NCBI GenBank assembly: GCA_003158895.1 | Contig: PMLO01000024.1 | Coordinates: 1 to 42,147, forward strand | Direction of reading: 5' to 3' | Length of the DNA stretch: 42,147 bases | Source: Propionibacteriaceae bacterium | Lineage (GTDB): Bacteria > Actinomycetota > Actinomycetes > Propionibacteriales > Propionibacteriaceae | Shown here: positions 28,072-33,067 of the stretch, piece after piece | Layout: the number at the start of each line of letters is the position of its first letter | Numbering within the stretch: the first letter of the stretch is position 1 | Translations under genes and position numbers: made by a program | Notes under the pieces: model-generated | Database searches by the model: none | What the model was told of the DNA's origin: nothing | Seen by the model: only the letters and a program-made list of their open reading frames with translations

Positions 28072-29088
28072 CTACACGAACCGTACCCAGTTGGCCCCGT
28101 TACCCGTCTCCTGACGATCCACCGCGGTCAGCTGGGCATCAGCCCCGATCTCGTACAGGGTCGCCGTCGTCGACCGCTCCCCCACCGCCAGCAGGTACTT
28201 GCCATCAGGCGTCACGCCGAAGCCACGAGGCTGTGGCTCCGTCGGGGTGAACGCCGTCGCGGGCCCCGGTTCCCCGCTCAGCCCCAGGGGCAACGTGGCG
28301 ATCGTGGACGCGCTGCGTTCGCTCGCCCAGGCCCACCGACCGTCCGACGCCAGCTGGACGTCCGCGCCCCAGATGAGGTGCTCAGCCGCCGGATCGGCGC
28401 CGTACCGGCTGTGGGTCAGCCCAGCCGAGGGATCGACGATCGACTGCTGCGACGTGAGCGTCAGCTCCCCTGTGGCGCTGTCACGGGCGTAGTGGAGCAC
28501 CTCGCCGGAGAACTCCGTCACGACGAACGCGCTGGTCTCTGCGGCGTTGAGTACGACGTGTCGCGGGCCGGATCCCGCCGGCGCGGCCGCGGGGATGCCC
28601 TTGGTCAGTGCGCCGTCCCGGCCGAGCTCGTACCGGATCACGGCGTCCTCGCCGAGGGAGACCAGGTACGCATGCCGCGTGTCCTTGGTGACGACGACGC
28701 TGTGCGAGCTGGCGTGGAAGACCGCCGGTGACGGATCCCCGAGGTGACCGTTGTCCACCCGCCAGCACATCCCGTACCCCTCGTGGTAGAACACGCCGAG
28801 CAGTCGGTCGCCGTGCGGCGTGAGCGTGAGGTACGTCGGCGAGCCCGGCACCGTCATCTCGTCCCAGGTGGTCAGCGCTCCTGTCGTGGTGTCGAGAGAA
28901 CTGGTCACGATCGACGAAGGCTTGGCGCCGGAGTACAGGAGGTGCCGTTCCGGGTCGATGGCGAGCGTCGAGCAGCCCGGTCCGACGGCGCTCACCGCCA
29001 ACCGCTCCAGGCGGCCGTCCGCGATCCGGAACGTGCTGACCGTGCCGTCTACCGCGTTCGCGACCAGCGCGAGGACAGGGGTGCTCAT
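28072..29088 (-). CDS. Lactonase-family (6-phosphogluconolactonase-like) beta-propeller
   Basis: MSTPVLALVANAVDGTVSTFRIADGRL..., SGPRHVVLN, PRGFGVTPDGKYLLA. Confidence 0.88.
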   Translation of the reverse strand: MSTPVLALVANAVDGTVSTFRIADGRLERLAVSAVGPGCSTLAIDPERHLLYSGAKPSSIVTSSLDTTTGALTTWDEMTVPGSPTYLTLTPHGDRLLGVFYHEGYGMCWRVDNGHLGDPSPAVFHASSHSVVVTKDTRHAYLVSLGEDAVIRYELGRDGALTKGIPAAAPAGSGPRHVVLNAAETSAFVVTEFSGEVLHYARDSATGELTLTSQQSIVDPSAGLTHSRYGADPAAEHLIWGADVQLASDGRWAWASERSASTIATLPLGLSGEPGPATAFTPTEPQPRGFGVTPDGKYLLAVGERSTTATLYEIGADAQLTAVDRQETGNGANWVRFV

Positions 29089-29179
29089 GCTCGTCACTCT
29101 AGAGCGCGCGATGAGAGGTGTGCGCGCCCTTGTGGGGTACGTGCCACGGCCAGTGGGTGGGCCGTGTATCTTCCCGAGC

Positions 29180-31279
29180 ATGAGTTCGAAGACGAACGCA
29201 CCGCTTGCGCGTATCGATGATCCGTCGGCCATCCGCAACGTCGTCCTGGTCGGTTCCAGTGGCTCCGGGAAGACAACCCTGTTCGAGCACCTAGTGCGCA
29301 CGAACGTGGCCAGCTACCGAGGCGAGAAGGAGGACCTGGAACGGAGCTCGGCGCTGCAGCTGGCGGCGTTCCGTACGGGTGACATCGTTCTCAACCTGCT
29401 CGATGCGCCGGGGCATCCCGACTTCGTGGGCGAGCTCCGCGCGGCCCTGCGTGCCGCCGATGCGGCCGTGTTCGTGGTCGCGGCCGGTGACGGCATCGAC
29501 GCGGCGACCGCCGCGCTGTGGCACGAGTGCGCCGCTGTCGGCATGCCGCGCGCCATCGTGGTGACCAAGCTCGACGACGGCCGGACCACGTTCGACGTGG
29601 CGCTCGGTGACCTGCAGTCGGTTTTGGGCAAGTCCGTACAGCCCGGATACGTACCGCTGGTGTCCGGCGGGCAGATCACCGGCAACCTGTCGCTGGTCTC
29701 GCAGCAGGTCCACGACTACAGCTCGGGCAGCCTCGTGACGCGAGCCGCCGACGCGGCCGAGCTGGGCATCATCGAGCAGTACCGTTCCGAGCTCATCGAG
29801 GGGATCATCGAGGAGTCCGAGGACGCCGATCTCATGGACCGCTACCTCGAAGGTGACGAGCTCAAGGAGAACGAGCTGCTCGCCGACCTGCTCACCGCAA
29901 TCCTCCATGGCCGCTTCCACCCCGTCGTACCGATCAACTCCCTCAACGGGATCGGCACCGACCAGCTGCTGACCGTGATCGAGAACTCGTTCCCGCAGCC
30001 CGGCACGCACCGGCTCCGCGTCGCGGCACCCAACGGCAAGGAGCTCGAGTCGCTGTCCGGCGACCCGAGCGGCCCTCTCGTCGCCGAGGTCATCCGCACC
30101 ACGTCCGACCAGTTCGCGGGCCGCCTGTCGCTCGTACGCATCTACAACGGCACGCTGAAGGTCGACGACGTCGTCCACGTCTCGGGCCACCGCAGCCTGT
30201 TCACCGGTGCCGCCGACCCCGCACACCCCGACCACGACGACGACGAGCGGGTGGGACCGCTGTCGGTGCCGTCCGGGATCGAGACGACGCCCGTGGAGGT
30301 CGCGATCGCCGGCCAGCTCGTGTACGTGTCGAAGCTCTCCAAGGCCGAGACCGCGGACACGCTGTCCGCGAAGGATCGACCGGCCACCGTCGAGCCGTGG
30401 AACCTGCCGGAGCCGCTGCTGCCCGTCGCCATCCGTGCCGCGTCGCGCAACGACGAGGACAAGCTGCCCGGTGCGCTGGCCAGGCTCGCGGTCGAGGACA
30501 CGACCGTACGGCTGGAGCGCACTGTCGAGACCGACCAGATCGTTCTCTGGACGATGGGCCAGGGCCACGTCGACCTGCTCCTCGGCCGCCTCGTCCAGCG
30601 CTATGGCGTGAAGGTCGAGCCCGAGGAGCTGAAGGTGCCGCTACGCGAGACGTTCATCGCGAAGGCGTCGGCCCAGGGCCGCCACGTGAAGCAGTCGGGC
30701 GGCCACGGCCAGTACGCGGTGTGCCAGCTCGAGATCGAGCCGCTCGACCGCGGCGCGGGCTTCGAGTTCGTCGACAAGGTCGTCGGCGGTGCCGTACCGC
30801 GCCAGTTCATCCCGTCCGTCGAGAAGGGCGTCCGGGGTCAGCTGGAGAAGGGCGTGCTCGCCGGTTACCCGCTGGTGGACGTACGGGTGACGCTGGTCGA
30901 CGGCAAGTCCCACTCGGTGGACTCGTCCGACATGGCGTTCCAGACGGCAGGCTCGCTGGGCCTGCGTGAGGCGGCGAACGCGAAGACTGTGACGCTGCTG
31001 GAGCCGATCGACGAGGTCGTCGTGACCGTCGGCGAGGAGTACATGGGCGCGGTCATGACCGACGTCTCCGGCCGCCGAGGCCACGTGCTCGGCACCGACT
31101 CCGACGACGCCCACCACGCGATGATCCGGGCGCTCATCCCCGCGAGCGAGCTCAGCCGGTACGCGATCGACCTCCGTGGCCTCGCTCACGGCTCCGGCTC
31201 GTTCACCCGGACCTTCCACGGCTACGAGCAGATGCCCCAGAACCTCGTCGACGAGGCCGTCAAGGCGCACCACAGCTGA
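29180..31279 (+). CDS. EF-G-like translation-factor GTPase (FusA2 type, divergent switch I)
   Basis: [42 protein letters not shown]-terminal EF-G domains [19 protein letters not shown]...[12 protein letters not shown]. Confidence 0.93.
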
Positions 31280-31281
31280 GT

Positions 31282-31372
31282 CCGTACAGACGAACGTACC
31301 TATCGCGCCCACTCGTCCCTGCGCCCCCTCGTGACGCTGCGACGAGAGGGCAGATCGGTACGTTCCTCTGGA
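31282..31372. repeat. Imperfect inverted repeat (copies A and B) after the EF-G-like gene
   Basis: A CCGTACAGACGAACGTACCTA (31282-31302) faces B CAGATCGGTACGTTCCTCTGGA (31351-31372); the flanking arms also pair imperfectly. Confidence 0.8.
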
Positions 31373-31438
31373 CCCGTGCCGGCGTGAGCCTGTGCATAAC
31401 CTCCCCGCAGCGCCACGGGGACGGTCCACGCTTGACCT

Positions 31439-32349
31439 GTGTCCGCGGTGGAGGTGCTCGAACGACTGGGTGGCGTCGCCACCTGGTCCGCCCTGAGCCG
31501 CCGCTGCAGTCAGGCGGGGATCCGACGTCTCGTGGCTTCGGGGGACCTCGTGCTCGATGCGCGTGGCCGGTACGACTGCCCCACGCCGACGCATCATTGC
31601 GCACCGCGGCCCGTCTGTCCGCGGTGCTCTCCCATCGCAGCGCGGCCCAGTTCCATGGCTGGGAACAGAAGTCCCCACCCACGCTCCCCGAGGTCACCGT
31701 TCCGAAGAACCGCCACGTCGCGGTCGGGCAGCGACGAGGCGTCCAGGTGCATCGGGCGGAGCTCGAACCGTCCGACATCGACGGTCCCGCGACGTCGATG
31801 AGGCGCACCATCGCCGACTGTCTGCGGTCCCTGCCTGAGGACGAGTCGCTCGCGATCGCCGACTCGGTACTGCGTTCCCACGCGGAGACCCCGTCGTCGC
31901 TGCGGGCGTTCGTGGCGACCCTCCGTGGGCCGGGGAGCGGCCAGGCTCGCCGCGTGGCTGCCAGCGCGAACGGACTGTCAGCGAACCCTTTCGAAACCGA
32001 GCTGCGTCGCCTGGCGATGATTGCCGGCCTCAACGTCAGGCTTCACGTCCCCCTGCACGCGGAGCACTTCATCGGGAAGCCCGACCTCGTCGACGTCGAT
32101 CGCAGGATCATCCTCGAGGCCGACTCTTTCGAGTGGCACGGATCCCGCCGGGCACTCGTACGGGACGCGCGCCGCTACAACAGCTTCGTCGTCGCGGGCT
32201 GGGTGGTGCTCCGTTTCTCATGGGAGGACGTGATGCACCACCCGGACGACGTGCTTCGCGTCTTGAGGGCCGTTGCGTCACAAGGACGTACCGACTGCGA
32301 CTGCTGCGGCCTGAGCCATGCGCGTGGCCCGCACCGCGGGTCCCGTTAG
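31439..32349 (+). pseudogene. AbiEi-like winged-helix + DUF559 (Vsr-like nuclease fold) gene with -1 frameshift
   Basis: Frame 2: MSAVEVLERLGGVATWSALSRRCSQAGIRRLVASGDLVLDARGRYDCP; continues in frame 1 from 31582: HADASLRTAARLSAVLSHRSAAQFHGWEQ...GKPDLVDVDRRIILEADSFEWHG. Switch at CCCC 31579-31582. Confidence 0.85.
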
Positions 32350-32367
32350 GTACGTTCTTCTGTACGG
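32347..32367 (-). repeat. Copy C of the GAACGTACC repeat, directly after the marC stop
   Basis: Minus strand CCGTACAGAAGAACGTACCTA; 20/21 identical to copy A in opposite orientation. Confidence 0.9.
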
Positions 32368-32985
32368 TCAGCGCCCCATGAAACCCATGACGCCGTCGGC
32401 CATCATCTGTACCGCGATGGCGCTCAGGACGAGGCCTGCGATGCGGGTCAGCAGCGTGATGCCGGCCTCCTTGAGCACACGGCGGATGACCTCGGCGAAC
32501 CGCAGCGTGAGGTACACGCCGAGCATCGCGGTGAGCAGCGCCACGGCGACGACGACGTAGCCGAGCAGCGTCGACTCCGACTGCACCGCGATCATGATCG
32601 CCACGATGACACCTGGGCCGGCGAGCAGCGGCGTCCCCAGCGGCACGATCGCCACGTTCACGTTGGACTCGGGGGCATCATCGGAGGGGGACTCGTCGAA
32701 GTGTCCTGTGAGCAGCTGGAGCGCGACGAGCAGCAGGAGCAGGCCGCCCGAGATCTGGAGCGCACCCACCGACACGTGCAGGTAGTCGAGGATGAACCGC
32801 CCGAACATGCCGAACAGCCCGGTGACGGCGAGTGCGACGAGCGTCGCCCGTCGCGCGGCCACATTCCGATGCCGCGGGGACATCCTGCGGGTGAGCCCCA
32901 GGAACACGGGCAGCAACCCTGGCGGGTCAAGAATCACCCACAACGTCAGCACCGTGGAGGTGAAGACATACCCGTACGAGCTCAC
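32368..32985 (-). CDS. MarC family integral membrane protein
   Basis: VLTLWVILDPPGLLPVFLGLTRRM...VNVAIVPLGTPLLAGPGVIVAIM; AAGGGAG SD before GTG 32985. Confidence 0.92.
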   Translation of the reverse strand: MSSYGYVFTSTVLTLWVILDPPGLLPVFLGLTRRMSPRHRNVAARRATLVALAVTGLFGMFGRFILDYLHVSVGALQISGGLLLLLVALQLLTGHFDESPSDDAPESNVNVAIVPLGTPLLAGPGVIVAIMIAVQSESTLLGYVVVAVALLTAMLGVYLTLRFAEVIRRVLKEAGITLLTRIAGLVLSAIAVQMMADGVMGFMGR

Positions 32986-33067
32986 AAGCACTCCCTTCGC
33001 GAGGGATCACGCTAGTCGGGCCGGGCCGTGTCCTTCACGTCGGTCCCCCTGCACGGGCACCCATACA

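Follow-up and report, generated by a model that had tools for sequence, protein, structure and literature searches.

The window analysed here, a 42,147-nt stretch of DNA from a Propionibacteriaceae bacterium, contains a solitary gene for an AbiEi-DUF559 protein, i.e. an AbiEi-like protein with a putative nuclease domain, which is placed between two copies of a short palindromic element. We hold it to be fairly probable that this locus is a REPtron-like unit, in which the gene product recognises the very palindrome that surrounds its own gene. At the level of sequence, our comparisons show that genes of this type are associated with such repeats across the order Propionibacteriales, the one order within which this coupling was examined, and the data suggest that small palindromic repeats are spread or maintained by a kind of enzyme not described before.

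Two palindromic elements around a putative nuclease gene

The two elements lie between convergent genes, i.e. an EF-G-like translation factor gene on the plus strand (28820–31279; Pfam EFG_IV, GTP_EFTU and EFG_C; the open reading frame from 28820 is long and the true start is probably near 29180) and a gene for a marC-family membrane protein on the minus strand (32368–32991; Pfam MarC, E = 2.5e-50). The original prediction had noticed matching inverted arms, A and C, just past both stop codons, and this holds: CCGTACAGAMGAACGTACCTA occurs exactly at 31282–31302 on the plus strand (arm A) and at 32347–32367 on the minus strand (arm C), with no further match in the window at up to three mismatches and a match in 0 of 100 dinucleotide shuffles. 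Arm A starts 2 nt past the EF-G-like stop (reading frame end 31279), and the last base of arm C, 32367, adjoins the marC stop. The proposed inner partners are real as well, with 31284–31304 inversely repeated at 31353–31373 (86%) in the case of A and B, and 32279–32301 more weakly at 32340–32362 (74%) in the case of C′ and C. What does not stand is the grouping of A and C as a single bracket, as A+B and C′+C form two separate 84-nt palindromes; since eight further paired elements occur in the genome, these two are regarded as complete elements of one family.

Element 1 extends from 31282 to 31373 (arm A 31282–31302, arm B 31351–31372, family core of 84 nt at 31287–31370) and is recovered in its own genome by covariance model R1 with E = 7e-14. 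Element 2 covers 32279–32367 (arm C′ 32279–32294, arm C 32347–32367, family core 32279–32362; E = 2e-14 with the same model). The nuclease reading frame ends in this element, which contributes its final ~22 residues and its TAG stop (32347–32349), the latter lying inside arm C. Rfam gave no meaningful match within 31000–32700. Integron attC sites were rejected on inspection, the arms having no GTTRRRY-type core.

The nuclease gene itself runs from 31439 to 32349 on the plus strand. Its first part is in frame from 31439 and the rest, from about 31590, is in the frame of the open reading frame 31384–32349, so that the gene, read in two frames, carries one frameshift; this single change of frame, near 31585–31600, may represent decay, an assembly error or recoding. 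By profile comparison of the Pfam type, the protein matches DUF559, with MTES_1575 and AbiEi_1 staying below their cut-offs, and it is also matched by PADLOC AbiEi models (4e-10). Alignments of its homologues stop near residue 300, i.e. at the start of element 2. Three acidic residues, E204, D234 and E245 (P0001 numbering), are invariant in 84 homologues and D247 is mostly conserved, with all four present in the window protein. With a structure model of a homologue (pLDDT 92), Foldseek retrieved AbiEi (6y8q, E = 2.9e-5) and Rv2827c (1zel, E = 1.9e-4), and the last third of this model matches the homing endonuclease I-Bth0305I (3r3p, TM 0.80 to the target), 3hrl and Vsr (1vsr). As judged from the model, the protein has the predicted fold of an AbiEi antitoxin, i.e. 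a winged-helix start followed by the AbiEi second domain, and ends in a putative nuclease of the DUF559/Vsr-like type, with PD-(D/E)XK acidic residues and the corresponding fold. In difference to type IV AbiE systems, no AbiEii (DUF1814) toxin gene is adjacent at the window locus, where the neighbours encode the EF-G-like protein and MarC.

The genome of the window also encodes another, distantly related DUF559 homologue (L040, C166:8199–8849), which has imperfect palindromes on both sides (61–67%). Plasmid and phage collections yielded one weak homologue match and one of 44%; the latter resides on MT837367.1, an unannotated 'Bacteriophage sp.' contig from human faeces that is possibly bacterial DNA, and similar stretches flank the gene there.

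The repeat family and its orthologous sites

In the assembly to which the window belongs (3.59 Mb, 286 contigs), the arm occurs nine times at up to three mismatches and a reversed-pattern control not at all. The family comprises ten full elements of 83, 84 or 94 nt, plus one arm cut at a contig end, with inverted arms CAGAMGAACGTACCTAACG / CGWTAGGTACGTTCKTCTG of which ~19 nt are conserved and with a variable centre. The covariance model recovers the identical ten elements (E between 1e-16 and 3e-12) and one additional match at chance level. The two elements of 94 nt, on C230 (L004:1423–1516) and C248 (L005:1506–1599), are longer by 10 nt, which is about one helical turn of DNA and could be chance.

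A few copies each are found in two of six genomes of the same genus, and the family is absent from all 51 searched genomes of other genera in the same family and order. Searching the genome and its relatives, as had been proposed, showed that the arm is not a single occurrence. Among the GAACGTACC pairs by which the family was sought more widely, there were none in viral contigs and five matches in genome contigs, one being the G004 contig and the rest judged to be at chance level. The elements are located mostly directly past stop codons, several of them between converging genes. The original prediction of a REPIN-like family of 3′-end repeats is borne out by these dispersed, genus-restricted palindromes directly past stop codons and by empty orthologous sites (see below). 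No GTAG or CGTC tag stands out in an alignment of the elements (A1). With respect to folding, their centres do not stand out from shuffles (mean z −0.47). Among the families tested, only that of G043 has 5′ and 3′ halves that are complementary to each other above the halves of other copies, weakly so (115 of 5000 permutations), the own halves in the other tested families being no better complementary than those of other copies; upkeep of the hairpins by compensatory change is therefore not established.

Comparison of orthologous sites, which covers some of the copies, reveals both presence and absence. The gap between the EF-G-like gene and marC consists of a 7-nt spacer in G006, where the 1.09-kb segment is missing, as had been anticipated for an empty site; it contains one palindrome in G001, and two palindromes plus the gene in the window. 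At the C155 site, the element is shared with G004 while G001 and G005 are empty, and at the C214 site it is shared with G001 and absent in G004, G006 and G003. The flanks of these junctions are too diverged to resolve a target-site duplication. The single element in G001 may be a hybrid of A and C, against which it scores 29.5, versus 17 against A/B and 15.5 against C′/C, but an unrelated element of the window's genome also reaches 26. Of the earlier idea that A and C are the ends of a mobile unit, the absence of the 1.09-kb stretch in G006 and its replacement by a single palindrome in G001 remain, but A and C themselves are the outer arms of separate palindromes.

Palindromes or hairpins of other kinds occupy the EF-G/marC gap in four genomes, i.e. 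G002, G003, G005 and G013. In G002 (L090), unrelated elements of the GACAGGCA family are situated where the window has GAACGTACC elements, and repeated GGGACATAAGGGGACGGTTCCTGTTACGTCCC-like sequences occur downstream of the EF-G-like gene at the marC site of G013 (L094). Likewise, at the site of element C137, G004 (L150) has a different palindrome, CATTCAGTGG...CCACTGAATG, in the position of the GAACGTACC element.

Homologous genes and their own palindromes

Similar flanks on the two sides of the gene were already seen repeatedly in the first loci compared. Our survey of homologues then covered 80 regions, each at most 20 kb long, with 84 homologues from 21 Propionibacteriales genomes, and flanks were scored as paired when the similarity between upstream and downstream flank exceeded the 95th percentile of 730 control genes. 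Such pairing was found for 49 of the 84 homologues in comparison to 37 of 730 control genes (p = 1.7e-32), and for 8 of 173 control genes with non-coding flanks (p = 1.3e-21 versus the homologues). When flanks of mismatched homologues were compared, 11 of 1008 pairs (1%) were above the threshold. At least one flank-paired homologue is present in 18 of the 21 genomes; for about 40% of the homologues no repeat pair was detected, the windows as well as the gene starts having been approximate. The paired flanks typically are palindromes of 60–120 nt. In the 35 strongest cases, the upstream copy ends a median of 61 nt ahead of the gene start and the downstream copy starts a median of 1 nt past the stop; in 17 of these 35 it starts at or before the gene end, as in the window.

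A homologue in G002 (45% identity) has two palindromes per side, which belong to a different family, GACAGGCA...TGCCTGTC, with 36 copies in G002, five in G001, four in G004, one in the window's genome and none in three others (reversed control, none). The G004 homologue has one GACAGGCA-family palindrome downstream, with its upstream side running off the contig. More generally, element similarity above 18 is seen for 8 of 29 homologue pairs with at least 50% protein identity versus 0 of 868 pairs below, and among 48 pairs of paralogues from the same genome a repeat is common to one only, whose members are 56% identical. By sequence similarity, the repeat tracks the nuclease lineage.

These lineage-specific ends are also informative about the possibility that the palindrome–gene–palindrome unit moves as a whole, with DUF559 as transposase and the single palindromes as MITEs or solo ends. 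Similar ends do bracket the gene, solo copies are dispersed and G006 has no 1.09-kb segment, all of which is as expected for such a transposon, but two near-identical gene units were seen in none of the genomes examined, paralogues within a genome have unrelated ends, each of these ends is a whole palindrome and not a simple terminal repeat, and G002 has two elements on each side. We regard such a transposon as improbable.

The sampled 20-kb loci being too sparse to assess dispersal, a genome-wide search with 18 repeats was used. Among the matches listed, there are at least 30 dispersed copies in G048, at least 27 in G043, at least 17 and at least 11 for two repeats in G040 and at least 8 in G020; for the G010 repeat, the matches listed are the two copies at its gene only. 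Among fetched copies with classifiable neighbours, 12 of 18 in G043 are located between converging genes (background 0.20, p = 2.8e-5), as are 7 of 20 in G048 (background 0.14, p = 0.013), and the G048 copies are near-identical (89–100%).

Could these palindromes rather be operators and terminators? The AbiEi-like part might repress its own gene at the upstream palindrome, while the downstream copy terminates transcription and the dispersed copies represent a regulon or shared terminators. AbiEi and Rv2827c bind pairs of 23-bp inverted repeats in promoters and thereby autoregulate (PMC7319586), and the median distance to the gene start as well as the many copies just past a stop codon could be understood in this way. 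For an operator, however, one would not expect a further, near-identical copy that lies at the stop codon or overlaps it; the dispersed copies prefer converging 3′ ends over promoters; presence and absence at orthologous sites, together with near-identity as in G048, resembles spreading; and the protein has an invariant putative nuclease site. A purely regulatory role thus appears unlikely, if a little less so than movement of the whole unit.

Finally, convergent 3′ gaps may be hot-spots in which palindromes accumulate independently of nuclease genes, so that the gene would be cargo, or a defence gene that landed in repeats. The other palindromes and hairpins in the EF-G/marC gap of four genomes would be in line with this, as would the PADLOC AbiEi matches and the three homologues that match the NCBIfam anti-phage ProA model. 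Yet each nuclease lineage has repeats of its own, flanks of mismatched homologues hardly ever match and the pairing recurs in nearly all genomes surveyed, so that this explanation is strongly disfavoured.

A candidate enzyme partner of short palindromes

With homologues throughout the order being bracketed by their own, different and dispersed palindromes, the gene is more likely to be the enzyme partner of the repeats than, as also considered originally, the cargo of a non-autonomous unit. Returning to the REPtron-like reading, we infer, as the economical explanation, that AbiEi-DUF559 proteins bind their palindromes and cut DNA, and that this leads to copying of the repeats. The AbiEi-like part may bind the pair of inverted arms, much as AbiEi antitoxins do with their pairs of 23-bp inverted repeats; the Vsr/I-Bth0305I-like domain would then nick or cut at the palindrome or at a target site, and through repair or transposition a copy of the short element would arise at a further intergenic position, in many cases where two genes converge. 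The short repeats would multiply in this way, whereas the gene, as is the case for RAYT genes, would seldom change its place. At the locus described here, an element would have entered the gap that separates the stop codons of EF-G and marC, with the gene either having come with the element pair or later having been lost from between the pair. In addition to these activities, the protein may regulate its own gene through the upstream copy.

REP/REPIN repeats with RAYT tyrosine transposases form REPtrons and TIRtrons (PMC3733652). The likeness to REPtrons includes short dispersed palindromes, often intergenic and variably present between relatives, as well as a solitary enzyme gene flanked by its own repeat, with repeat families differing by enzyme lineage; by sequence, a gene flanked by a dispersed palindrome is found in the window, in G002 and, going by flank similarity, in the 49 paired homologues. 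In contrast to REPtrons, the enzyme combines an AbiEi-like part with a PD-(D/E)XK Vsr-like domain and is unrelated to the RAYT HUH Y1 transposase, as the protein matches DUF559/MTES_1575/AbiEi and its genome contains no match to PF01797; moreover, the elements are single palindromes of 60–120 nt in which no GTAG or CGTC tag is obvious.

With AbiEi and Rv2827c of type IV toxin–antitoxin systems, the protein shares the predicted fold of its first two thirds and membership of a family that binds inverted-repeat pairs, but it has an extra putative nuclease domain, and its repeats flank the gene upstream as well as downstream and are also found genome-wide. Homing enzymes with the I-Bth0305I-type fold mobilise genetic elements through cleavage at target sites. 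With DUF559 and Vsr-like endonucleases including I-Bth0305I, the protein has in common the predicted fold of its catalytic domain and the conservation of acidic residues, but its gene is located outside an intron or intein, has no adjacent methyltransferase gene in the window and is associated with palindromic repeats. MITEs are likewise short, non-coding palindromes with inverted ends that are dispersed between genes; in contrast to MITEs, a transposase of a known family that could act as partner was not identified here.

Overall, we lean, if only slightly, towards AbiEi-DUF559 proteins being a second, independently evolved class of enzymes for short palindromes, in which each lineage would spread its own palindrome by nicking or cutting in a homing-like or transposition-like manner, using PD-(D/E)XK rather than HUH chemistry. 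In the open-access literature (titles, abstracts and joint searches, with subscription papers and preprints outside this scope), we recognised no link between DUF559 and palindromic repeats. For many families of bacterial palindromic repeats, we know of no enzyme. If many such repeats have AbiEi-DUF559 proteins as their partners, a role could be assigned to a multi-copy 'domain of unknown function' family, and AbiEi-like genes now counted as defence genes may need re-annotation. The origin of REP-like repeats in high-GC actinobacteria would then also become directly testable.
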